A stretch of 64,000 nt of DNA, taken from assembly GCA_902774015.1 (NCBI GenBank), contig CACYHB010000007.1:24902-88901 (forward strand), in the 5' to 3' direction. Positions 3,399-34,018 of this stretch are shown in pieces. This stretch comes from Oscillospiraceae bacterium (lineage in GTDB: Bacteria > Bacillota > Clostridia > Oscillospirales > Oscillospiraceae). The position numbers and the translations under genes are program-made. The first letter of the stretch is position 1. Each line of letters opens with the position of its first letter. The notes under the pieces are model-generated. The model was not told the DNA's origin. It did not search any database and worked only from the letters and a program-made list of their open reading frames with translations.

Positions 3399-4037
3399 GT
3401 GCGCAGGGAATCATTCTATGAAAAGTACATCAAGCGTGGAATGGACTTCTTTGGCGCCTGCATAGCTGTTGTGCTGGTTGCGATACCCATGGCGATCACC
3501 GCTGTTGCCGTCCGGGTCACGCTCGGAGCACCGGTTCTGTACAGTGCGGTTCGCATCGGAAAAGATGAGAAGCCGTTCATGATGTACAAATTCAGAAGCA
3601 TGACCAACGAAAAGGATGAGGACGGAAAGCTGCTGCCGGATGCTGAGCGCATGACGAAGCTGGGAAAGTTCTTGCGGAGCACCAGCCTCGATGAGCTCCC
3701 GGAGCTGTTCTCCATCCTGAAGGGCGACATGGCTTTTATAGGACCGCGCCCGATGCCTGTAGAATATCTTCCCTATTTCAGAGCGGAAGAACGAGTCCGC
3801 CATACCTGCCGCGGCGGGATGTCCGGGCTGGCGCAGGTCAACGGCCGGACAAACATAACCTGGGATGAAAAATTCAGTTACGATATAGAATACGTGGAAA
3901 ACATGTCGTTTTCTCAGGACTTCAGGATTTTTTTTGCGACGATCCGAAAAGTCTTTGAGCGGGAAAACATCGGTGCCCCGGATGAGGGCCAGAACATTGA
4001 CCTGAACCTGACGCGGCCGAAACAAGAGGATATATGA
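3399..4037 (+). CDS. Undecaprenyl-phosphate sugar phosphotransferase (PglC-like)
   Basis: Small phosphoglycosyl transferase that moves a sugar-1-phosphate from a nucleotide sugar to undecaprenyl phosphate, the first committed step of a lipid-linked glycan. 212 residues from the GTG at 3399, chosen because GGGGGA sits 8 nt upstream; a TTG at 3369 has no ribosome site. Seen: one N-terminal membrane-inserting helix, then MYKFRSM, the catalytic DELPEL (Asp-Glu) and FIGPRP, with GLAQVNGR near the end. The size matches the monotopic PglC type rather than the larger WbaP type. The sugar is not predictable. It overlaps the next gene by 4 nt. Confidence 0.92.
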   Translation: MRRESFYEKYIKRGMDFFGACIAVVLVAIPMAITAVAVRVTLGAPVLYSAVRIGKDEKPFMMYKFRSMTNEKDEDGKLLPDAERMTKLGKFLRSTSLDELPELFSILKGDMAFIGPRPMPVEYLPYFRAEERVRHTCRGGMSGLAQVNGRTNITWDEKFSYDIEYVENMSFSQDFRIFFATIRKVFERENIGAPDEGQNIDLNLTRPKQEDI

Positions 4038-17857: not shown

Positions 17858-19336
17858 ATGACGGATGAATCGCACAGCAACACAAGAGGGAAGGCCCTGT
17901 CGGGGCTGATGTGGCGCTTTCTGGAGCGCTTCGGGGCCCAGGGCGTGACCTTTGTCGTGTCGATCATTCTGGCGCGGCTGCTCGACCCCGAGGTGTACGG
18001 CGTGGTCGCCATCGTCACGGTGGTGACGGCGATCCTGAACGTCTTTGTGGACAGCGGGCTCGGCAACGCTCTGATCCAGAAGAAGGACGCGGACGACCTG
18101 GACTTCTCCACGGTGTTCTTCTTCAATATGGCCATGTGCGCGGCGCTGTATCTGCTGGTGTTTGCCGCGGCGCCCCTGATCGCGCGTATTTACGGCATGC
18201 CGGAGCTGACGGCTCTGATCCGCGTGATGAGCCTGATCCTGATCATCTCCGGCGTGAAGAACGTGCAGCAGGCATACGTTTCCCGGCATCTGCTCTTTAA
18301 GCGCTTTTTCTTCGCCACGCTGGGCGGGACGCTGGGCGCGGCGGTGCTGGGCATCTGGATGGCCTACCGGGGGATGGGCGCGTGGGCGCTGGTGGCGCAG
18401 GGCCTGTTCAACGCGGCGACGGATACGCTGATCCTCTGGCTTACGGTCAAGTGGCGGCCGAAACGGATGTTTTCGTGGGAGCGCTTCCGCGGCCTGTTTT
18501 CCTTCGGCTGGAAGCTGCTGGCGTCCCAACTGATCGAGACGGTGTACAACAATCTGCGCCAGCTCATTATCGGCAAGCTGTATACCGCGGAGAGCCTGGC
18601 CTTCTATAATCGGGGCTACATGCTGCCCAACGTGTTCGTTGTGAACGTGAACAGCTCCATCGACAGCGTGCTGCTGCCGGTGATGTCCGGCGTGCAGGAC
18701 GAGGTGGAGAGCGTCAAGGCGATGACGCGGCGCTCGGTGAAGCTCAGCTCCTACGTGATGTGGCCGCTGCTGCTTGGGCTGGCTGCCTGCTCCCGCCCGC
18801 TGGTCACGGTGCTGCTGACGGCCAAGTGGCTGCCCTGCGTGCCCTACGTGATCATCTTCTGCGTCAGCTACGCCTTTCTGCCGGTGCAGACGGCGAACCT
18901 GAACGCGATCAAGGCCCTGGGCCGGAGCGACATCTATCTGCGGCTGGAGACGATCAAGAAGCTGATCGGCTTTGCGATCCTGCTCGCCACGATGTGGTTC
19001 GGGCCGCTGGTCATGGCGGCGAGCAACCTGTTTTTCAGCGTGGTGAACATGGTCATCAACGCCTGGCCGAACCGGAAGCTGCTGGGCTATTCCTTCCGGC
19101 AGCAGGCGGCGGACATGCTGCCCTCGGCGCTGCTGGCCGGGCTGATGTTCGCGGCGGTGTGGTGCCTGCAGTATCTGGGTCTCTCCCCGGCGATGACCCT
19201 GCTGGTGCAGATCCCGGCGGGCGCCGCGGTCTACGTGCTCGGCTCCGCGCTCTTTCGGATCGAGAGCTTCGGCTATCTGCTGGGGCTTGTCAGGGAGTTG
19301 CTGACGCGCAGGAGACGGGGGCGGACGCAGGCCTGA
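17858..19336 (+). CDS. Wzx-type lipid-linked oligosaccharide flippase (MOP superfamily)
   Basis: 492 residues with twelve or more membrane segments. The N-terminus (GKALSGLMWRFLERFGAQGV, then ILARLLDPEVYGVVAIVTV) is characteristic of the WzxC/lipopolysaccharide-export branch of the MOP flippases. It would flip the finished repeat unit to the outer face for Wzy. GGAGG precedes the ATG at 17858. GC content is clearly higher than in the preceding genes, similar to 21-28 kb. It is the last gene of locus 1; a strong new promoter follows at 19409. Confidence 0.92.
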   Translation: MTDESHSNTRGKALSGLMWRFLERFGAQGVTFVVSIILARLLDPEVYGVVAIVTVVTAILNVFVDSGLGNALIQKKDADDLDFSTVFFFNMAMCAALYLLVFAAAPLIARIYGMPELTALIRVMSLILIISGVKNVQQAYVSRHLLFKRFFFATLGGTLGAAVLGIWMAYRGMGAWALVAQGLFNAATDTLILWLTVKWRPKRMFSWERFRGLFSFGWKLLASQLIETVYNNLRQLIIGKLYTAESLAFYNRGYMLPNVFVVNVNSSIDSVLLPVMSGVQDEVESVKAMTRRSVKLSSYVMWPLLLGLAACSRPLVTVLLTAKWLPCVPYVIIFCVSYAFLPVQTANLNAIKALGRSDIYLRLETIKKLIGFAILLATMWFGPLVMAASNLFFSVVNMVINAWPNRKLLGYSFRQQAADMLPSALLAGLMFAAVWCLQYLGLSPAMTLLVQIPAGAAVYVLGSALFRIESFGYLLGLVRELLTRRRRGRTQA

Positions 19337-19408
19337 GTGGGCCGCGCGGCTTTGGTCGATTTCTACAAATATTTGGAAAATTTTTCGGGAAAAAAGGCAA
19401 GGGAACTC

Positions 19409-19437
19409 TTGACAAAGCGGATGCGAGAGGTTAAAAT
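19409..19437 (+). promoter_or_regulatory. Strong promoter for leader-protein gene A
   Basis: TTGACA at 19409-19414, 17-bp spacer, TAAAAT at 19432-19437. It lies just outside the inverted repeat that begins at 19481. A small hairpin (GCGGCA-GTT-TGCCGC, 19456-19470) sits in the 5' untranslated region. Confidence 0.8.
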
Positions 19438-19480
19438 TACCCTGTAACATAGCTTGCGGCAGTTTGCCGCGATCTTTCGA

Positions 19481-19590
19481 AAAGTATAACACTCTGTTAA
19501 ATGGGAGGATACATAAATGAAAACTTGGACGATACCGCAGGTGGTGGTCGAGGCTTTCCGCGCCAATGAGTACGTGGCGGGTTCGTGCCA
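19481..19590 (+). repeat. Left copy of 110-bp inverted repeat (5' UTR plus leader codons)
   Basis: Covers the last 36 nt of the 5' UTR with its ribosome site and the first 74 nt of gene A. It matches the reverse complement of 20725-20834 with four differences in 110 positions, and similarity stops sharply on the body side. Both copies end at the same codon phase, so inversion would make in-frame chimeras. Confidence 0.9.
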
Positions 19591-19951
19591 ACAGGCATTT
19601 GTTGCAGATGAAACAGCTATCAAAGCCGTCATGGCGGATAGACAGATTGATTTCAACTGTGAAGCTAGTGGTGAAGGCAGACCTCCTTCTTCTGGTCAGA
19701 GTATTTTTATCAGTAGTAGTAATTTGACTCAATGGAATATTGATCAAGGTTTGATTGGCCCGTATGAAGCGGGAGTTCACATCAGAGCAGATAACGCGAC
19801 TCAAGCGCAGCAGTATGTAGATCAGGGGCTTTTTGATAGGTACTATTCCCAAAGTGGCATGTATTATGGCGTAGTCAATATTTACTTGTTCCAATATAGT
19901 AAGGACTGGCATCCATCGTCTAAATTTGAAGGTTCTATAAAGTTTTCTTGA
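19517..19951 (+). CDS. Leader-bearing small protein A (candidate modified/exported peptide substrate)
   Basis: 144 residues. The first 25 residues contain PQVVVEAFRANEYVAGSC, nearly identical to protein B (20376-20798) and similar to protein C (33596-34018). The body (residues 26-144) is unrelated in detail to B but keeps the same sketch: an IDFN acidic patch near residue 43, a VNIYLF strand near residue 120, and a C-terminal KFS ending like NFS in B and C. The body is AT-rich with codon use unlike the GC-rich flippase upstream, suggesting acquisition behind a resident leader. There is no classical signal peptide. GGGAGGA gives a strong ribosome site. Adjacent maturation-type genes suggest a RiPP-like or otherwise processed product; function is unproven. 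Confidence 0.8.
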   Translation: MKTWTIPQVVVEAFRANEYVAGSCQQAFVADETAIKAVMADRQIDFNCEASGEGRPPSSGQSIFISSSNLTQWNIDQGLIGPYEAGVHIRADNATQAQQYVDQGLFDRYYSQSGMYYGVVNIYLFQYSKDWHPSSKFEGSIKFS

Positions 19952-19990
19952 GAGACCGCTGCTCTCCTACACAGTTTGATTCAGATTACA

Positions 19991-20019
19991 ACACCCCGGC
20001 GGGAATCCCGCCGGGGTGT
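19991..20019. terminator. Terminator-like hairpin after gene A
   Basis: Perfect 13-bp stem ACACCCCGGCGGG / CCCGCCGGGGTGT with an AAT loop, 40 nt after the stop of gene A. There is no T tract, so termination strength is uncertain. Confidence 0.5.
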
Positions 20020-20047
20020 CGGCTTGCAGAGAAAGCTCGTTTCTGTC

Positions 20048-20067
20048 ATCCTGAGCGCAGCGAAGGA
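20048..20067. repeat. Short extragenic repeat, copy 1
   Basis: Contains GAGCGCAGCGAAGGA; 19 of 20 positions match 57718-57737. Similar GAGCGnAGCGAAG motifs are common between genes in gut Firmicutes (recalled, not searched). Confidence 0.5.
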
Positions 20068-20305
20068 TCTGAAGTCCCTCTTTATCGGAGAGAACAAGAG
20101 GAGTCATGCGCCATTATTCACGGAGGGGCGACGATGAGCCGCCCTCCGGTGCGGCAGAAAAAACGAGAAAAATCAGGCGAATTCGTTCAAACGTGCGAAT
20201 CCGCCTGATTCTTCTTGCTGAGCGGGCGGCTGATAGCCGCCCCTACTGTGCCGAAGCTGCTTCGTGCGTTTTCGGAACATGCTCCTTTTCAGCCATCAGC
20301 AAGCC

Positions 20306-20337
20306 AGCACCCCGGCGGGATTTCCCGCCGGGGTGCT
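20306..20337. terminator. Terminator-like hairpin after gene B
   Basis: 15-bp perfect stem (AGCACCCCGGCGGGA and its complement) with a 2-nt loop, 39 nt beyond the stop of minus-strand gene B. It shares its core with the hairpin after gene A, so the invertible segment is almost symmetric. Confidence 0.5.
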
Positions 20338-20375
20338 GCTTTCTGTATTAAGCTGTGCAGATACGTAACGACCTA

Positions 20376-20798
20376 TCAAGAAAAGTTAGCAATAGTATAA
20401 TCGGTAACCGGATGATAATGGTTGTTGCCACCAGCGGGAAAATAGAAAGCATAGACTTTAGCCCAGTAAGAAGTACTAGTTGGGCTCTGCCTTACGACAT
20501 TCAAATGAAGAGTATTTTCTGCATAGTCCACATACTCTGGCTTAATTTGCATCCACGCTTCAACTGCTCCGTCCTTATCAATTTGTTTCCATTGATAATC
20601 ATTCAAAGCAGTACTAAACATATATCCTTCCGGATAACCCCAATCACCATCATCACCATTAAGATCAAGACTATTATTTCTTCTTATTCTTATGAGATCT
20701 TCTTCATTTGATACAAATGAGTCCTGGCACGAACCTGCCACGTACTCATTGGCGCGGAAAGCCTCGACCACCACCTGCGGCATCATCCAAGTTTTCAT
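20376..20798 (-). CDS. Leader-bearing small protein B (candidate modified/exported peptide substrate)
   Basis: 140 residues. The leader is the same as in protein A except two residues (MM for TI near positions 5-6), ending ANEYVAGSC. The body differs almost completely from A but keeps an LDLNGDDGD patch near residue 40, a VYAFYF strand near 115 and a C-terminal ANFS. It is AT-rich like A. Orientation is opposite to A, so the two bodies face each other within the inverted repeats. Upstream is a weak promoter, and the tyrosine recombinase gene ends 128 nt away on the same strand. A calcium-binding role for the Asp-rich patch is possible but not supported further. Confidence 0.78.
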   Translation of the reverse strand: MKTWMMPQVVVEAFRANEYVAGSCQDSFVSNEEDLIRIRRNNSLDLNGDDGDWGYPEGYMFSTALNDYQWKQIDKDGAVEAWMQIKPEYVDYAENTLHLNVVRQSPTSTSYWAKVYAFYFPAGGNNHYHPVTDYTIANFS

Positions 20799-20834
20799 TT
20801 ATGTATCCTCCCATTTAGCAGAGTGTTATACTTT
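20725..20834 (-). repeat. Right copy of 110-bp inverted repeat (5' UTR plus leader codons)
   Basis: Inverted partner of 19481-19590, 1134 bp apart, with four differences. Contains the ribosome site and first 74 nt of gene B. The recombinase gene begins 91 nt beyond it. Confidence 0.9.
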
Positions 20835-20852
20835 GCGTAAAAAAATAAACAA
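20825..20852 (-). promoter_or_regulatory. Weak candidate promoter for gene B
   Basis: Minus strand: TTGTTT at 20847-20852, 16-bp spacer, TATAAC at 20825-20830. The -10 lies inside the repeat and the -35 outside it. Much poorer than the promoter of gene A, so the two ends of the segment probably differ in strength. Confidence 0.4.
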
Positions 20853-20876
20853 TTTAGTTAAATATAGCGCTAAATT
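20851..20876. repeat. Short palindrome between gene B and the recombinase
   Basis: Arms AATTTAG and CTAAATT, 12 nt apart, with an internal TAGCGCTA palindrome. It could be an accessory binding site for the recombinase or a weak terminator of its transcript. No second copy was found on the gene A side. Confidence 0.3.
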
Positions 20877-20925
20877 GCAGGAGAGGATATGTTATGAAAA
20901 AGAACGAGACGAAACGAAAACGAAC

Positions 20926-21870
20926 CTATTCGAGCAGGGAAGAGAGCTTGTTCATGTTCCGGCGCTTGAAGTCCATAGAGGGGTGCACGTAGCGGTTCAT
21001 GGTGATGCTCACGCTGGCGTGGCCCAGGATCTCGCTGAGGCTCTTCACGTCGAAGCCCAGCTCCACGCAGCGGGTGGCGAAGCTGTGGCGGCAGGTGTGG
21101 AAGGAGGCGTCCCGGATGCCGCAGGCCCGCAGGGCCTCCTTGTAGCGGTTCTCCAGCGTGCGCGGCTCCACGAAGAAGGGCTTGCCCGTGAGGAAATAGC
21201 AGCCGTCCGAGCGCCGATAGGGCCGCAGCACCTCGATCAGGAAATCCGGCAGGGGAATGCTGCGCAGGGAACAGGCGCTCTTGGGCGGGGTGATGACGAT
21301 GCGGGTCTTCTGCTTTTCGTCAAAGGTCTGCAGCCGCTGGAGCGTGGCGCGCACGGTGAGGCTTTTGTCCTCCAGCGAGATATCGCCCCAGCGCAGGGCG
21401 CAGAGCTCGCCGATGCGGATCCCGGTATACAGGCTCAGCAGGATCCCCAGCCGGCAGAGATCCGGCTTCTCGCAGAGCCAGGCCGTCAGACGGCGCTGCT
21501 CCTCCTGCGTGAAGACCCGCAGCGGCTTTCGCTGCTGCCGCGCGACCAGACCGTGCAGATCCGCCGCGTCCGCGCCCCGGTCCTGGGCAAAGCGGAGCAC
21601 GCACTTGAGCACGGAGAGCACGTCCGTCACCGTCTTGGGGGCGAGCCCGGCGCCTTTCCTGCCCCCGCTCTGCAGAAGCTGCTGGCGGAAGGCCGCCGCG
21701 CGCTCCCGGGTGACGGCCTCCGGCGGCAGATCGCCGAAGGCGGGCAGCAGGTAGGAATTGAGAATGTTCACGTAGCGGACGCGGCTGGAGTCCTTCAGCT
21801 CCGTCTCCGGAGAGCTGAGCCACTGCCGCGCCCAGTCGGCAAAGCTGCCGGGGATTCGCGGGGGGTCCAT
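20926..21870 (-). CDS. Tyrosine recombinase (phage integrase/XerD-like)
   Basis: 314 residues from the ATG at 21870, which has AGGAGG 7 nt upstream; longer readings of the frame lack a start signal. Seen: a SAM-like N-terminal core-binding domain (SFADWARQWLSS onward), then a catalytic domain with TGIRIGELCALRW (first Arg), HTCRHSFATRC (His-x-x-Arg), LGHASVSITMNRYVH (second His and nucleophile Tyr), so the active site looks complete. No phage or ICE genes flank it. Its 3' end faces the inverted leader repeats, which suggests it inverts that segment rather than integrates an element. This is inferred from position. Confidence 0.9.
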   Translation of the reverse strand: MDPPRIPGSFADWARQWLSSPETELKDSSRVRYVNILNSYLLPAFGDLPPEAVTRERAAAFRQQLLQSGGRKGAGLAPKTVTDVLSVLKCVLRFAQDRGADAADLHGLVARQQRKPLRVFTQEEQRRLTAWLCEKPDLCRLGILLSLYTGIRIGELCALRWGDISLEDKSLTVRATLQRLQTFDEKQKTRIVITPPKSACSLRSIPLPDFLIEVLRPYRRSDGCYFLTGKPFFVEPRTLENRYKEALRACGIRDASFHTCRHSFATRCVELGFDVKSLSEILGHASVSITMNRYVHPSMDFKRRNMNKLSSLLE

Positions 21871-22033
21871 GCGTTTTCCTCCTTTCCCGCACCGTCCGGG
21901 GCGTCTCGGCGAGACGCCGGGCGAAAAAAATGAGGTGGATCCGTAGGAAGAACGAAAACACCTCATGGCTGACAACAAACCGTTTTTGACAGGGGCGGCG
22001 AAAGCCGCCTCTTTTGCCGGGGAGAGAAAGCCT

Positions 22034-23200
22034 TTACAGGCCGGGGGAGTCCTCCTGTGCGCACTCGCCGTCGGCAGCCGCCAGCTCCTCACGCATGAGC
22101 CGTTCCAGCTCCAGCGTGTAGCGGCAGGCGTAGTCCGGCTTGCCGTCCTGCCGCCCGGTCTCGTAGAGGGCAGAGGCGGGGCAGATATCGCAGAGGCCGC
22201 GGCGGGGGCAGACGGCGCAGTCGGCATGGATGAGCAGCGCCTCCATCCCGTCCTGGATCTGCCGCCAGGCGGCGGCAAAGCCGAGCGCGAACACGTCGGC
22301 CTCCGGGGAGCGCAGGATCACGCAGGGCCGCATATGTCCCTGCCAGTTGAGCGTGAAGGAGCAGCGCCCCGCCTTGCAGGTATTGCGCTCGGGCTTCCGC
22401 GCCTCCGGATGCTCTTCGGCGAAGCGGGCGCGGGCGTCCACCTCGGCGATCTGCCGGGCGCAGTAGGCCAGAAAGTCCTCCCGCTCGGGATAATAACGCC
22501 GGTGGATCTCGTGGGCGGTTTGGGCGGCCTCCTCCGCCGGAAGGCGGGAGGAGAAATCGAAGCCGCGGCTGCGCTCCCGCGTGGCGGGCATGATGCGGGG
22601 ATCGATGCCGTAGACCAAATCGCGCTCTTTGCAGTAGTCCAGGAAGGCGGACAGGTCCTCCGCATTTTTCACGGTCATCGTGTAGCTGAGCTTCACGTGG
22701 ACCCCGCGCTGCCGCAGCAGCTCGATGGCCCGCACCGTGCGCGCATAGCCGCCGGGCAGATGGCACAGCTCCCGGTAGGCCTTGTCGCTCGCGCCGTAGA
22801 GGGTGACGTTCACGCGACGGGGCGGGTTCTGTGCGAAGAAATCCGCCCACTCCTCGTCCAGCAGCGTGCCGTTGGTGTTGAGCATCAGGATGAAGCCCAT
22901 CTTCCGCAGGCCCAGGTACAGCTCCCGAAAGCCGGGGTAGAGCAGCGGCTCCCCGCCGGTCAGCAGCAGGAAAAGCACCCCGGCGTCACGCATCTCCTGC
23001 GCGACCGAGAGCCACTCCTCCGCCGTGCGCAGGCGGCCACGGGCCTCCATCTCCTCGCGCGACAGGCGGACGTAGCACATGTCGCAGTCCATGGTGCACA
23101 GGGGCGTCACCTCGATGCTGCCGTTGAGGGGGATGCGTTTGGCGTCCGCCATGCGGAACAGCGCCTGCTCGCTCCGCTCAAAATCCTCGATGGGGTTCAT
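22034..23200 (-). CDS. Radical SAM/SPASM peptide-maturase-like protein
   Basis: 388 residues. CTMDCDMC near residue 35 is the Cx3Cx2C radical SAM cluster motif; LLLTGGEPLLYPGF binds SAM. The C-terminal SPASM region has CKAGRCSF, then C-x2-C-x5-C-x2-C spacing in CAVCPRRGLCDICP and a last Cys near DYACRY, enough for one or two extra Fe-S clusters. This layout is typical of enzymes that modify ribosomal peptides (PqqE, AlbA, sactionine types). It overlaps the PqqD-like gene by 4 nt, and PqqD-type proteins present the peptide substrate to such enzymes. The likely targets are proteins A, B and C; the modification is unknown. Confidence 0.9.
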   Translation of the reverse strand: MNPIEDFERSEQALFRMADAKRIPLNGSIEVTPLCTMDCDMCYVRLSREEMEARGRLRTAEEWLSVAQEMRDAGVLFLLLTGGEPLLYPGFRELYLGLRKMGFILMLNTNGTLLDEEWADFFAQNPPRRVNVTLYGASDKAYRELCHLPGGYARTVRAIELLRQRGVHVKLSYTMTVKNAEDLSAFLDYCKERDLVYGIDPRIMPATRERSRGFDFSSRLPAEEAAQTAHEIHRRYYPEREDFLAYCARQIAEVDARARFAEEHPEARKPERNTCKAGRCSFTLNWQGHMRPCVILRSPEADVFALGFAAAWRQIQDGMEALLIHADCAVCPRRGLCDICPASALYETGRQDGKPDYACRYTLELERLMREELAAADGECAQEDSPGL

Positions 23201-23535
23201 TTTTCCCCGTCCTCCCGGATCAGCGTGCCCAGATCCAGACTCTCCAGCAAGAAACGGTACACGCCGTACTCGATGAACTTCGGGTCGCCGTTCTCACTCT
23301 CGAACTCGTGCAGGGCGTTCTCCAGCACCTGGGCGGGCGTTGCGCCCTTCCTGAAGTGCCGCCAGAGCCAGGCCGAGGTCTCGTTGAGGGTCAGCATGGT
23401 GTTTTCAAAGCGGCCGGATTCCACCACCGGCACCACCACGCACTCGTCCCCGATCTCACGCAGAATGAAGTCCGGATTCGTCACGAGCCGGGTGTTCCAG
23501 TCCACGTCATTGAAGATGATCTTGTTTTCGTCCAT
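23197..23535 (-). CDS. PqqD-like peptide chaperone (RRE-type)
   Basis: 112 residues with the PqqD fold signature: LNETSAWLWRHFRKG around residue 50 and a C-terminal FLLESLDLGTL helix. PqqD-like proteins bind leader peptides of RiPP precursors and deliver them to the radical SAM enzyme. It is translationally coupled to the genes on both sides (29-nt overlap with the kinase-like gene, 4-nt with the radical SAM gene). Confidence 0.85.
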   Translation of the reverse strand: MDENKIIFNDVDWNTRLVTNPDFILREIGDECVVVPVVESGRFENTMLTLNETSAWLWRHFRKGATPAQVLENALHEFESENGDPKFIEYGVYRFLLESLDLGTLIREDGEK

Positions 23536-24400
23536 ATCCGTTCTCCTGTCTTCTTTCGTCGTTTTCCAGCGTATCCGCGAGCAGCTCCACCGTCTCGCGG
23601 GAAATGGTGCAGGCCAGATGGTAGACCGGGATCTCGCGCGTGAGCGCCTCGATCAGATCCATGGCCCGGTTTTGAAAGTCCCGGCTCCAGCGGTTGACCG
23701 TGATCTGGGTGTAGATCTGTGAAAAGGCCGCCATCGGCCCCAGCCGCTCGATCCGGTTCTCCGGGGCCTGGCTCAGCATCACGATCGCCCGGATGGGCGT
23801 GCTTTCGTTGTTGCAGATCTCCGAGCTGCCGCAGACCGGCCAGCCGCAGGCCTGCCACACGCCGCCGGCCTTCTGCAGCAGCGAGCGGTCCCCGTTGAGC
23901 TGCTTTACGCCGCGGTACCGCTCCCAGAGCCCGGCCTGGGTGCTCTTGCCCGTGCCGGAGGGCGCGGAAAAGAGGATCGCCCCGCGCTCCGTGCGGATGT
24001 AGGCCGAGTGCAGCACCAGCGCATCGCGCCCGATCATCCGCCGCTCAAAGGCGAAGAGGGAGGAGAACATCGTGTCGTATTTGAGCTCCCCCAGCACCCG
24101 GGGCAGCAGCAGGATCTCCGCGCTGTCCGCCGCCGTCTCCCGGTAACAGGCATAGGGCGCCGCGCCCGTCTCGCTGACGTAGCGGGTCTCCAGCCCGTCC
24201 CGCTCCAGCACCAGCAGATCCTTCCGCAGCGCGATCCGGCGGCCCTCCGGCTCCGGCAGCGCGTCCGCGAGCGCGATCCGGTAGGCGTAGTCCGGCGCGT
24301 CGGCGTCCGATTCAAATTTCATGAAATTTTCCGGGGGCCGCACCTCGTCCGGACACGAAAGCCGGAACGAAAAGTCCCCGATGCGAAAGCATTTGTCCAT
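23507..24400 (-). CDS. HPr-kinase-like P-loop protein
   Basis: 297 residues from the ATG at 24400 (GGAG upstream); a longer frame has no start signal. The C-terminal half has ILFSAPSGTGKSTQAGLW, the Walker A loop of the HprK/P-like family, followed by LNGDRSLL, equivalent to the Walker B region. HPrK-like proteins accompany PqqD-like and nucleotidyltransferase-like genes in lasso-peptide (paeninodin-type) clusters, where they phosphorylate the peptide. That supports a peptide-modifying role here, but there is no lasso cyclase. First gene of a three-gene minus-strand operon. Confidence 0.82.
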   Translation of the reverse strand: MDKCFRIGDFSFRLSCPDEVRPPENFMKFESDADAPDYAYRIALADALPEPEGRRIALRKDLLVLERDGLETRYVSETGAAPYACYRETAADSAEILLLPRVLGELKYDTMFSSLFAFERRMIGRDALVLHSAYIRTERGAILFSAPSGTGKSTQAGLWERYRGVKQLNGDRSLLQKAGGVWQACGWPVCGSSEICNNESTPIRAIVMLSQAPENRIERLGPMAAFSQIYTQITVNRWSRDFQNRAMDLIEALTREIPVYHLACTISRETVELLADTLENDERRQENGYGRKQDHLQ

Positions 24401-24425
24401 GCGCGCTGCTCCAGATTTTTCAGTC

Positions 24426-24453
24426 GTATCAACATGATACCATAGATTGTCAA
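24426..24453 (-). promoter_or_regulatory. Promoter for the HPrK-PqqD-radical SAM operon
   Basis: Minus strand TTGACA (24448-24453), 16-bp spacer, TGATAC (24426-24431). An alternative overlapping pair TTGTAT/TATCAT exists. About 25 nt to the start codon. Confidence 0.6.
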
Positions 24454-24502
24454 GAATACAAGCACCCGTCTGCAAAAGCAAAGGGAGATAGGAAAAAAGA
24501 CT

Positions 24503-24530
24503 TGTAAAACCGAAAAATGAGAGTATAATT
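24503..24530 (+). promoter_or_regulatory. Promoter for the NTase-S26 fusion and ABC exporter
   Basis: TTGTAA at 24503-24508, 16-bp spacer, TATAAT at 24525-24530. It is divergent from the operon promoter at 24426, so the two halves of the maturation locus could be co-regulated from one 165-bp region. Confidence 0.65.
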
Positions 24531-24565
24531 ATTCTGCCATATTATGTGAACGAAAGGGGCAGAAC

Positions 24566-25897
24566 ATGGACCGTTCCCGGCTGTGCTTTCTCGCGCTGCT
24601 GCGCTGCGCCCTGGGCGCCGCGCCCTCGGCTGAAATCGGCGCGCCGGGGGAGGAAGTGTTCCGCCTCGCCCAGACCCAGACGCTGCTGCCCGTGCTCGTC
24701 GATACGGCCGCGCGTCTCTGCGGGCCTGCCTGCGTCCCACCCGCTTACCGGCGGACCGCCGCCCGCCTGACTTCGTTCCAGACCGCGCAGAACGTCCTGT
24801 TTCAGAAGCTGCTCGACGGCCTGCTGGACGCGGGGCTTTCGCCCCTGTCGCTGCGCGGCGCGTCGGACCGGGTGCTCTTTCCCGCGGGGCTGCCCCTCCT
24901 CTGCGACGTGGAGGAGCTGGCCGTCCGGCCGGAGGAGCGGGAAGAATGCGAGCGCATCCTGCTGGATCACGGCCTCGCACCCGAGAACGGTGAACCAAAC
25001 GTGTTCTGCCGCCGGGAGAAGCGCCTCTGCGTCCGGCTCACGGTACTGCCCGACTTTCCCGTTTCCCGCCTGCTGACAGGCCCGGACGGCGCGCGCTGCC
25101 CCGTCCCCGCTCCGACGCCGCAGCTGCTGTGGCGGCTGCGCTGCGCCTCGGCAAATCTCTGCCGCGGCGGCGTCGGCCTCGCGGATCTGTGCGGGATCTG
25201 CCTGCTGGCCGAACGGTATGACGCGGAGATCGACTGGCCCGCCCTTCGGGAAGAGCTGGAAAGCGCCGGTCTCGAGGCTTTCGCTGCCGCCGTCTTTCAG
25301 ATCGGCCGGGAAACCCTGGGGCTGCAGACAAGGGAGCTCTTTCCGCAGATATCGGCCGGGCCGCTGCTCGACGCGATGCTGGAGGGCGGGGTCTACGGCT
25401 GCGAGGGCGATCTTCGCGCCTATGGCGTTGAAGAGGGCCGCCCCGGCGGGCAGATGAACACCTTCGCCTATCTCACGGCGCTGCGCGCCCTGATCGAGGG
25501 CGGACGCAGCCTGACGCTGACCGTCTCCGGCAGCAGCATGACGCCTTTCCTCTGCCCCCGGCGCGACCGGGTCCGGCTCTCTCCGCCGGAACGACCCCTG
25601 CGCCGCGGCGACGTCGTGTTTTACCAGCAGGGGGGCGGGCAGTTCATCCTGCACCGCATCCTGCGCGCTTACGGCGGCGCGGAGCCGCGCTTTGACATCG
25701 TGGGCGACGCCCAGACCGCCGTCGACCGCGGCGTCCGCCGGGAGCAGATTTTCGCTCTGGCTGTCGACGCCGAGCGCAAGGGCCGTCCGGCCGGACCGGG
25801 CCATTTCTGGTGGCGCTTTTTCGCCGGCCCATGGCTGCGGCTTCTGCCGCTGCGCCCCGTTCTTACGCGCCTTTACGCTGCGCTTCGGGGCAGATAG
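24566..25897 (+). CDS. Fusion of NTP_transf_5-like domain and S24/S26 signal-peptidase-like domain
   Basis: 443 residues. Residues 1-310 follow the nucleotidyltransferase family layout (LSPLSLRGASDRVLFPAGLP in place of the KG active-site loop), but the Asp-x-Asp pair is degraded to CDVEEL, so catalysis by this half is doubtful. From residue 318, TVSGSSMTPFL matches the catalytic Ser box of type I signal peptidases and RGDVVFYQ the next box. FILHRIL near residue 362 puts His where bacterial enzymes have Lys, as in SipW/eukaryotic-type peptidases; DIVGDAQTAVDRG matches the last conserved box. No membrane helix is obvious. It probably clips or handles the leader proteins. RBS AAAGGGG. Confidence 0.78.
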   Translation: MDRSRLCFLALLRCALGAAPSAEIGAPGEEVFRLAQTQTLLPVLVDTAARLCGPACVPPAYRRTAARLTSFQTAQNVLFQKLLDGLLDAGLSPLSLRGASDRVLFPAGLPLLCDVEELAVRPEEREECERILLDHGLAPENGEPNVFCRREKRLCVRLTVLPDFPVSRLLTGPDGARCPVPAPTPQLLWRLRCASANLCRGGVGLADLCGICLLAERYDAEIDWPALREELESAGLEAFAAAVFQIGRETLGLQTRELFPQISAGPLLDAMLEGGVYGCEGDLRAYGVEEGRPGGQMNTFAYLTALRALIEGGRSLTLTVSGSSMTPFLCPRRDRVRLSPPERPLRRGDVVFYQQGGGQFILHRILRAYGGAEPRFDIVGDAQTAVDRGVRREQIFALAVDAERKGRPAGPGHFWWRFFAGPWLRLLPLRPVLTRLYAALRGR

Positions 25898-25931
25898 AAC
25901 CCGGGCCGCTTTCAATCATTCGGAGTGAGCA

Positions 25932-27716
25932 ATGGATCAACATACAGACGAAAACAAAGCGTTTTTCAACTCCCTTCATACGCTGCGCGTCAAGATCAAG
26001 GACGGCACCTTCCATGAGATCCTGGAAGACTGGCGCTGGATCTTCTCCTACAGCAAGCGCTACAAGGGAGCCATCCTCTTCTACGTGCTGCTGGGCGTCT
26101 TCAGTACCTCGCTCGGCCTGGTGGCCAGCGTGGCCAGCAAGTATATGGTGGACATCATCACCGGCTATCAGACGGAGAAGCTGGGGATCTTCATCGGCCT
26201 GACCGTGGGCAGCGCCCTCTTCAGCCTGATCTTCTCCAACCTCATCGGCCGCATCTCCACCAAGCTCAGCATCGATATCAACAACGACATCCAGGCCGAT
26301 ATCTTCGACCAGATCATCGACGTGGACTGGAAGGCCATCAACAAGTATTCAAACGGCGATATCCTCAACCGCTTCAACGGCGACGTGGGCACGGTCAGCG
26401 GCAACGCCATCGGCTGGCTGCCCTCTATCATCATCTCCATCTACAACTTCATCGTCACCTTCTTCCTGATCTGGCACTACAACAAGGTCATGTCCCTGCT
26501 GGCCTTCGCCAGCGCGCCGATCATGCTGCTGATGAGCAAGTATCTGATCACCAAGCAGCGGGAATACTCCAAGAAGGTGCGCGAGACCAGCAGCGAGATG
26601 ATGAGCTTCGAGGTCGAGACCTTCTATAATTTTGACACCATCAAGTCCTTCGGCGTCATGGAGAGCTACGGCCGCAAGCTGCGCGACTGGCAGAAGAAGT
26701 TCAAGAAGCTCAGCCTGGACTACAATCTCTTCACCATCAAGACCGGCATCTTCATGTCCCTGATGGGCATGGTCATCCAGTACGCCGCCTTCGGCTACTG
26801 CCTGTTTTTGATGTGGACCCACCAGATCACCTACGGCACCATGACGCTCTTCCTCGAACAGAGGGGGAGACTCGCCGGCGCTTTCAACAGCGTGGTCGGC
26901 ATCATCCCCTCCTTCCTGACAAGCTCCGTCTCCGCCCACCGCATCCGCGAGCTCATCGATCTGCCCCGGGAACGTCACATCCCCGAGAGCGAGGAGCTGC
27001 GGGAACTGGCCGAGGAGGGCGTGGAGGTGCGGATGACGGACGTGAGCTTCGCCTATCTGGAGGGCCAGCAGGTCATCCAAAACTCCGATTTCCGCGCCGC
27101 GCCCGGGGAGATCGTGGCGCTGGTCGGCCCCTCCGGCGAGGGGAAGACCACCATGATCCGCCTGATGCTCGGCCTGATCCGGCCCGATGAGGGCGTGGCC
27201 CTGCTTCGCGGCAGCGATGGCAGGGAAGTGGAGATGAACGCGGACAGCCGCTATCTCTTCTCCTACGTGCCCCAGGGCAACACCGTCCTGTCGGGCACCG
27301 TGGCCGAGAACATGCGCATGGTAAAGGAGGACGCCACCGACGAGGAGATCGTCGAGGCGCTGAAGATCGCCTGCGCCTGGGATTTTGTCTCCAAGATGCC
27401 GGAGGGCATCAACTGCAAGATCGGCGAGCGCGGCCGCGGCTTCTCCGAAGGCCAGGCCCAGCGCATCGCCATCGCCCGCGCCGTCCTGCGCGACGCGCCG
27501 ATCCTGCTGCTGGACGAGGCCACCTCCGCGCTTGACGTGACCACCGAGCGCCAGGTGCTGCGCAACATCGTGCAGCGCAGGCCCAACAAGGTCTGCATCG
27601 TGACTACCCACCGCCCCACGGTCATCAATCTCTGCCAGCGGGTCTACCGCGTGATGGAGACCCACGTCACCGAGCTGAGCGAGGAGGAGTCCAGCCGTAT
27701 GGTCATGGACTTCTGA
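25932..27716 (+). CDS. ABC exporter half-transporter (fused permease and ATPase)
   Basis: 594 residues. Residues about 30-330 form a six-helix type I exporter domain. The ATPase has GPSGEGKTT (Walker A), a Q-loop in YVPQGNTVLSG, a divergent signature FSEGQAQRI, Walker B with ILLLDEATSALD and an H-loop TTHRPT. There is no N-terminal C39 peptidase domain, so leader cleavage would have to come from elsewhere, plausibly the S26-like fusion 34 nt upstream. Presumed to export the mature product as a homodimer. Confidence 0.92.
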   Translation: MDQHTDENKAFFNSLHTLRVKIKDGTFHEILEDWRWIFSYSKRYKGAILFYVLLGVFSTSLGLVASVASKYMVDIITGYQTEKLGIFIGLTVGSALFSLIFSNLIGRISTKLSIDINNDIQADIFDQIIDVDWKAINKYSNGDILNRFNGDVGTVSGNAIGWLPSIIISIYNFIVTFFLIWHYNKVMSLLAFASAPIMLLMSKYLITKQREYSKKVRETSSEMMSFEVETFYNFDTIKSFGVMESYGRKLRDWQKKFKKLSLDYNLFTIKTGIFMSLMGMVIQYAAFGYCLFLMWTHQITYGTMTLFLEQRGRLAGAFNSVVGIIPSFLTSSVSAHRIRELIDLPRERHIPESEELRELAEEGVEVRMTDVSFAYLEGQQVIQNSDFRAAPGEIVALVGPSGEGKTTMIRLMLGLIRPDEGVALLRGSDGREVEMNADSRYLFSYVPQGNTVLSGTVAENMRMVKEDATDEEIVEALKIACAWDFVSKMPEGINCKIGERGRGFSEGQAQRIAIARAVLRDAPILLLDEATSALDVTTERQVLRNIVQRRPNKVCIVTTHRPTVINLCQRVYRVMETHVTELSEEESSRMVMDF

Positions 27717-33595: not shown

Positions 33596-34018
33596 TTATG
33601 AGAAGTTTTGGGTCGACGTTGGCGTAAAGGGAGGGGGAGTGCTGCTGTCATATGTGCCCGTAGGGTATAATAAACCGGTTTTGCCGTCACCGAGGAAATA
33701 TACGTCGTACTGATCGACAAAATAATTCGTTGGGAAGGTATAGCTTTCTGTGAGCAACAGATAGGTATAATTACTGTAAAAATTTATGTTGTTCAACCAC
33801 CTGTTCGCAGAAGTACTCCCTTCCAGTACGATCGATGTGCTGGTTTTATCATCGATATCTTCGTTGCTGCTCAGTATAGTCCGCAATCCATTCCCGTCCA
33901 GATCGATATATTTCGCCTCCGATGAAAGAGAAACACCCGCCATCTGCGCGCATGCGGCTACGTATTCATTCGAAGCAAAGCCTTCGACCAAAATCTTCGG
34001 CATCGTCCAGATTGTCAT
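33596..34018 (-). CDS. Leader-bearing small protein C (relative of A and B)
   Basis: 140 residues from the ATG at 34018 (AGGAGG 8 nt upstream). The leader MPKILVEGFASNEYVAACAQ keeps the W-x-x-P...VE-x-F-x-x-NEYVA pattern of A and B but is diverged at DNA level, so it is not part of the inverted repeat. The body has YIDLDGNG, a YDVYFLGDG strand and ends TQNFS, matching the pattern of A and B. It is far from the maturation genes (6 kb) and has its own strong promoter, as expected for a substrate served in trans. AT-rich. Function unknown. Confidence 0.78.
   Translation of the reverse strand: MTIWTMPKILVEGFASNEYVAACAQMAGVSLSSEAKYIDLDGNGLRTILSSNEDIDDKTSTSIVLEGSTSANRWLNNINFYSNYTYLLLTESYTFPTNYFVDQYDVYFLGDGKTGLLYPTGTYDSSTPPPFTPTSTQNFS

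Follow-up and report, generated by a model that had tools for sequence, protein, structure and literature searches.

The locus analysed here lies in a 64-kb window, by which we mean the whole stretch of DNA under study, and centres on two small genes that face each other. Gene A (19517..19951, forward strand) is an open reading frame of 144 aa that carries the leader MKTWTIPQVVVEAFRANEYVAGSC, conforms to the leader pattern described below and ends in KFS. Gene B (20376..20798, reverse strand) is an open reading frame of 140 aa with a leader near-identical to that of A, a different body and the C-terminus NFS. The gene for a tyrosine recombinase of 314 aa, P0001, which we propose to be an invertase, occupies 20926..21870 on the reverse strand (Pfam Phage_integrase, 4e-23). 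As a preliminary description of this DNA had stated, the recombinase gene is complete and close by: its frame is open and its stop at 20926 lies 91 nt from the repeat shared by A and B. Beyond it are genes for a radical SAM protein that is likely a maturase (22034..23200, reverse; Pfam 3e-27; 51% identical to its homologue at locus L095), a PqqD-like protein that is a candidate leader-binding partner (23197..23535, reverse; Pfam 1.2e-5, above cut-off) and an HprK/ScmC-like protein (23507..24481, reverse; TIGR04249 at 1.3e-8, below cut-off). These are followed on the forward strand by a nucleotidyltransferase (NTP_transf_5, 24566..25897; 2.6e-11) with a weak S24-peptidase-like end (0.004, below cut-off) and by an ABC exporter-type protein identified in family searches (25932..27716).

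A consensus scan for promoter-like sites returned one good candidate, TTGACA-17-TAAAAT (19409..19437, forward strand, 11/12 bases), which faces A and lies outside the putative invertible segment; none was listed ahead of B. Gene B shares its strand with the recombinase and maturase genes and lies downstream of both. Between the recombinase and B is an AT-rich hairpin with a T tract (20838..20878, reverse; -6.2 kcal/mol, z -2.7), which is unlisted by the consensus scan for terminators, as that scan requires 3 G-C pairs. Because this hairpin is a weak terminator candidate at best, B may be low rather than off. Strong GC hairpins, both terminator candidates, are found 3' of A (19989..20021, forward; -29.5 kcal/mol, absent from the consensus-scan list) and 3' of B (20305..20338; listed by the scan on the forward strand, -37.2 kcal/mol on the reverse strand). 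The stretch between the two genes, 20030-20300, resembles dispersed intergenic repeats of Clostridia (CATCCTGAGCGCAGCGAAGGATCT).

A third leader-bearing paralogue, gene C (33596..34018, reverse; 140 aa, C-terminus NFS), was recognised by a leader spacing and a C-terminal FS like those of A and B. It has its own promoter-like TTGACA-17-TAAAAT, read by eye at 34165-34137, and no recombination site was found at this gene. Gene C lies near an LCP-like and a sortase-like gene, both named by resemblance.

The starts of A and B form an inverted repeat whose left arm (19481..19590, forward) covers the 5'UTR, ribosome site and leader codons of A and whose right arm is 20725..20834 (reverse), both defined by sequence comparison. 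Counted from the ATGs (19517 forward, 20798 reverse), identity spans -36 to +73 (110 nt) and is broken by four mismatches, which fall at -20 (T/C), +13 (C/T), +17 (A/G) and +62 (G/A). The repeat over the ribosome sites and the first 74 nt of the facing genes therefore measures exactly as previously claimed. Two further claims, that the identity includes synonymous sites and that it stops abruptly, hold with corrections. The arms are near-identical, but two of the three differences within the leader alter the amino acid (Thr/Met and Ile/Met) and one is synonymous. Matches per 20-nt block number 5-6 directly upstream of -40, 18-20 over -40 to +59, 15 over +60 to +99 and 7-11 thereafter. Thus the upstream edge is abrupt, while the downstream edge is sharp at codon 25 but trails off through some 20 nt of weaker likeness. 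A search of the window for inverted repeats of at least 25 nt, seeded by exact 16-nt matches and with arms up to 8 kb apart, found no other, and no further copy of the repeat DNA was found elsewhere in the same genome assembly (94% complete, 5.9% contaminated, 88 contigs).

With the leaders removed, the bodies of A and B retain a distant likeness (score 51 versus 28.5 +- 5.1 for shuffled sequences, reached by 0/500 shuffles). The likeness of C to B is marginal (27/500 shuffles reach the score) and that of C to A is not significant (359/500). Searches of Pfam and NCBIfam left A and B without a match above cut-off, the Pfam match of B standing at E 0.09, and PHROGs gave none of A, B and C a match of weight, the one of B standing at E 0.085. 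No homologue of A or B was found in 59 other relatives or, by tblastn, in genome contigs or viral contigs; in one search each, A was absent from plasmids and B from phages. Overall, the collections searched held no body homologue of either protein outside its own genome. A structure model of A was too poor for use (mean pLDDT 46). The bodies have a GC content of 41% in A (GC3 35) and 37% in B (GC3 28), compared with 57% in the leaders (GC3 72 and 76) and 60-71% in the seven neighbouring genes measured (GC3 82-91). The bodies (19591-19951 and 20376-20724) lie 16-20 points lower in GC than the leaders, as if of separate origin.

P0001 shares catalytic-domain homology with a family of relatives to which it is up to 48% identical across about 310 residues, and 75 of 394 genomes of this order hold a match at E 1e-40. 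Its best named plasmid matches are from Ruminococcus albus (39%) and Vescimonas fastidiosa (38%). The protein is without about 60 N-terminal residues that are present in four relatives (first Pfam domain at residue 10 versus 67-84). Its own genome contains 12 further, distant tyrosine recombinase matches, any of which could act in its place, so that P0001, as the neighbour of A and B, is their likely but unproven recombinase.

The closest relatives of P0001 were drawn from 60 and 394 genomes, and 31 close loci were taken from among the matches, 28 from the larger search and three from the smaller. Inverted repeats of 18-31 bp flank the recombinase in 19 of these 31 loci, compared with none of 26 distant integrases given the same treatment; the 31 loci are not all independent, since L062, L063 and L064 are one near-identical element. 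The repeats yield the site motif TTCGYARAGT-N5-ACTYTRCGAA, and the window itself played no part in its derivation. An inverted pair of motif sites with an identical spacer occurs in 21/31 close loci, a figure that is partly circular because the motif was derived from those loci, and in 0/26 distant and 0/310 Markov-shuffled loci. Another 35 relatives were examined, most of them with wider flanks; repeats or sites flank the recombinase in 28, and in 17 of these they are motif pairs. In total, 50 of 66 recombinases, from different places, lie between inverted repeats or sites, 38 of them by the motif. No flanking sites were seen in the remaining 16, of which some stand at the end of a contig and others may use sites of another, unrecognised sequence. 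Seven of the nine siteless loci among the first 31 (those other than L073 and L085) were refetched with wider flanks and still displayed no sites. Together, these layouts make the relatives of P0001 look like DNA invertases, judged by sequence.

In the window there is exactly one inverted pair of motif sites with an identical spacer, and its members are the two top motif scores in the 64 kb. The left candidate site, TTCGAAAAGT-ATAAC-ACTCTGTTAA (19476..19500, forward), matches the motif at 17/20 positions and lies in the 5'UTR of A; the right candidate site, TACGCAAAGT-ATAAC-ACTCTGCTAA (20815..20839, reverse), matches at 18/20 and lies in the 5'UTR of B. The half-sites are imperfect against the motif. 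The 16-nt site core has only two mismatch-free occurrences in the genome, the closest other match carrying two mismatches, and a motif pair with an identical spacer was found in 0/100 shuffled windows. The pair is near P0001 but to one side of it, so that the recombinase is outside, whereas in all 50 relatives with detected sites it is inside. No one-sided pair of motif sites was found among the relatives examined; in addition to their flanking pair, L143 and L148 have an inverted repeat on one side only, and this repeat lacks the motif.

Each candidate site lies 17-41 nt upstream of its start codon, leaving 16 nt between, and is ahead of the ribosome site. As the site common to the relatives falls at this position, the enzyme would move whole genes, leader included. 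When the segment is turned in silico between the spacer centres, B comes to lie behind the promoter at 19409, bringing along its ribosome site and leader, and A comes to lie behind the recombinase. By their motif, the sites are predicted to sit where a selector of the mycoplasma vpma/vsp type would have them, in the 5'UTRs of alternative genes. The earlier proposal that the recombinase joins leader A to body B is not supported by these positions, as the candidate site is upstream of both ribosome sites and not in the leader codons.

Based on these results, we propose that the recombinase encoded at 20926-21870 would recombine the two inverted 25-bp sites in the 5'UTRs of A and B, with the crossover in or next to the common spacer ATAAC, and would thereby flip a 1.3-kb segment that carries both complete genes. 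The fixed promoter at 19409 would then transcribe either A or B, while the gene that sits behind the recombinase would be silent or low. Sharing a leader, the two genes would supply alternative substrates to the radical SAM and PqqD-like genes nearby, and a clonal population would make two different products with one machinery. That an inversion switch operates at the A/B locus we infer with good confidence, and, given inversion, it is likely that whole genes are exchanged at the 5'UTR sites rather than hybrids made. The complete reading, a two-state selector switch by whole-gene exchange, is fairly probable. Which gene is on, what the products do and that A and B are modified, we likewise infer.

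The invertible cassette with an adjacent recombinase that had been suggested for this locus thus gains an inverted motif pair and an enzyme family linked to inverted sites, and it stands as a proposal. The same applies to the idea of one promoter serving alternative bodies: TTGACA-17-TAAAAT at 19409 faces A and inversion would bring B to it, with the amendment that whole genes, not bodies, would move.

A crossover within the common leader codons would instead produce hybrid leader-body genes. In the R64 shufflon and in pneumococcal hsdS, the crossover falls within coding sequence and gives hybrid proteins, and this locus had been likened to shufflons and hsdS inversion. The 110 nt of near identity, leader included, would permit in-frame homologous recombination, and Vpma chimeras are reported to arise without Xer1 at a 38-bp common stretch (PMC5634654). 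The comparison with shufflons and hsdS does not hold for the candidate sites, which lie outside coding sequence and are each separated from the start codon by 16 nt, so that whole genes would move. The site common to the recombinase relatives sits upstream of the ribosome site in both A and B, and leader-body hybrids would require homologous recombination rather than P0001. Since the leaders differ by three bases only, such hybrids would also hardly differ from whole-gene swaps. We consider the hybrid mechanism improbable.

About equally improbable is that A and B are static paralogues, born of an inverted duplication, whose leaders and 5'UTRs are held alike by gene conversion while the recombinase is inactive or serves another locus. 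Several features would suit such a history, namely the extension of leader identity well past any recombinase site, the divergence of the bodies to the weak homology given above, and the shorter N-terminus of P0001 and its place outside the segment. Against a static pair stand the inverted motif pair with its identical 5-nt spacer beside the recombinase, such a pair being absent from 100 shuffled windows, and the lack of a third mismatch-free core in the genome. Under the switch that we prefer, leader identity is not needed as a crossover site, because the candidate sites sit in the 5'UTR and whole genes are exchanged. Our guess is that the identity up to codon 25 is kept either by gene conversion acting on the two arms or by shared selection on a leader that one maturase reads. 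That the sites are attachment sites of an integrative element is very improbable, for although the recombinase is of integrase type, the sites are inverted and not direct, no phage or conjugation gene is present among nine proteins searched (17858-27713), and the inverted layouts of relatives adjoin sipW-tasA-like, exopolysaccharide-like and S-layer-like genes, as named by resemblance.

Orientation among relatives bears on whether the cassettes of this family turn. Relative to an operon that resembles sipW-tasA, the recombinase is divergent in L066, L067 and L076 and co-directed in L071, and both cassette states thus occur between relatives. These four loci come from different families with roughly 75% DNA identity. 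The far flank of L071 differs from that of the other three, and its orientation may have arisen by separate insertion. Among the near-identical L062, L063 and L064, only one orientation was found. Recombinase cassettes between inverted sites stand beside sipW-tasA-like genes (by resemblance) in L066, L067, L071, L076 and L042, which represent three genera; these neighbours suggest phase-variable biofilm fibres.

A relative with a layout of particular relevance is L163 (4048-8521; G360:C15), where a recombinase of the P0001 family lies between two divergent genes of 857 and 793 aa that resemble S-layer/SLH genes in their translated sequence. The 5'UTR and signal peptide of one gene recur in the other as an inverted repeat of 173 nt that has five mismatches, a pattern like the leader identity up to codon 25 of A and B. 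Inverted sites, TTTCGCAAAAG-GGACC-TTTTGCGAAA, are found upstream of the S-layer-like genes; they were read by eye and had been missed by the motif scan. A promoter-like TTGACA-18-TAATAT is inside the segment and points to one gene. L163 therefore looks like a mirror-image two-gene selector, with promoter and enzyme inside and the genes outside, the window being the reverse. The site motif is usable for predicting other switched genes of this invertase family, such as this S-layer-like pair.

Earlier, A and B had been said to look like genes for peptide substrates, and this view gains support from the radical SAM neighbourhood. A three-row profile of A, B and C searched against 399 other genomes of the family gave one new leader match, in G628 (E 0.002; locus L095). 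The match is an ORF of 131 aa that starts MNVREWVRPQTVAQRFVANEYVAAC. It has a PqqD-like gene on one side and a radical SAM gene on the other, and an HprK-like gene comes after the radical SAM gene, the PqqD and HprK names being by resemblance. Used as a query at E 0.01, the G628 ORF matched nothing in 295 genomes, that of the window included, and so did not reach A, B or C; such an empty answer is uninformative, and the tie of this ORF to A, B and C rests on leader and neighbours.

Homologues of the radical SAM protein were collected from 400 genomes, 32 of which had a match at E 1e-60, own genome included, and 29 of the 43 other matches were examined as loci. The leader pattern M..[WY]..P......[FL].....[IVL][AC]..C was present in a small ORF within 1.5 kb at 11 of these 29 loci, a count to be taken as description because the pattern was widened after members had been seen (a first version with NEY found one locus). 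The contrast with the controls is nonetheless strong: the pattern was absent from all 94 control loci, which come to 576 kb and include a few that overlap, and in the window it occurs only in A, B and C. Ten of the 11 ORFs have a C-terminal Ser, and the nine of them that were searched gave no Pfam or NCBIfam match above cut-off. A, B and C share a conserved leader with small ORFs beside homologous maturases, as radical SAM RiPP precursors would. Eight loci (L110, L115, L117, L118, L119, L123, L124 and L125) have ORFs of 79-93 aa near the radical SAM gene, at about 240-570 or 3530-3840, with a leader like Y..P....E.F.....IA..C and a C-terminal Ser; seven of these ORFs were searched (L123 was left out), with no Pfam or NCBIfam match above cut-off. 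Because the leader pattern recurs at radical SAM loci and is absent from controls, the radical SAM and PqqD-like genes at 22034-23535 probably have A, B and C as their leader-bearing substrates, perhaps together with the HprK-like gene and with the nucleotidyltransferase and ABC genes that extend to 27716.

A wider proposal is about as likely as not to be true: programmed DNA inversion may choose which ribosomal precursor one radical SAM/PqqD machinery receives, the leader staying constant while low-GC bodies are switched, and the modified, probably exported product would be diversified at the level of the substrate in a clonal population. If this is true, the choice of genes by inversion, a mechanism known from surface lipoproteins, from capsules and from restriction specificity, extends to radical SAM peptide substrates, and the locus offers a two-product test of what long leader-bearing substrates do. 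No inversion of RiPP or bacteriocin precursors was recognised among the matches listed from open-licence PMC literature. With radical SAM RiPP clusters that have PqqD-type proteins, the window shares leader-bearing small ORFs close to radical SAM and PqqD-like genes; the long bodies (115-120 aa), the HprK-like partner and the absence of a family match for A and B are unlike such clusters.

Alternative protein bodies are obtained by DNA inversion in the R64 shufflon and in pneumococcal hsdS (for hsdS, compare PMC4948785), as they would be in the window; the difference lies in the crossover, which at A and B would be outside coding sequence. The Ureaplasma mba/UU376 and UU172 element is described as having neighbouring opposed genes that are expressed alternately through inversion at short inverted repeats (PMC3047005); there a 5' coding region is fused to either body, whereas whole genes would move in the window. 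A survey of gut communities reports 33 invertons that form one group, 32 of them from Clostridia, and connects this group with one of tyrosine recombinases (PMC11892184); cassettes of the P0001 type are possibly its inverton group 139 and invertase group 35. The self-inverting cassettes of the relatives share recombinase family and site motif with the window, and differ in that the recombinase is inside the segment, whereas the window has the two genes within the segment, and both recombinase and promoter lie beyond it.

The closest published mechanism is that of mycoplasma vpma/vsp. In vpma of Mycoplasma agalactiae (PMC2268961; compare vsp of M. bovis), a tyrosine recombinase (Xer1, Mbr) is encoded nearby, the proposed sites are in the 5'UTR, the genes share a conserved 5'UTR and start of the signal peptide ahead of divergent bodies, and inversion links a silent ORF to one promoter. 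The window likewise displays a nearby tyrosine recombinase, candidate 5'UTR sites, conserved starts and divergent bodies, and its promoter-like site facing A would be the one promoter of such a system. It differs in having two genes instead of a multigene family and a different site, and its products look like radical SAM substrates, whereas those of vpma/vsp are lipoproteins.
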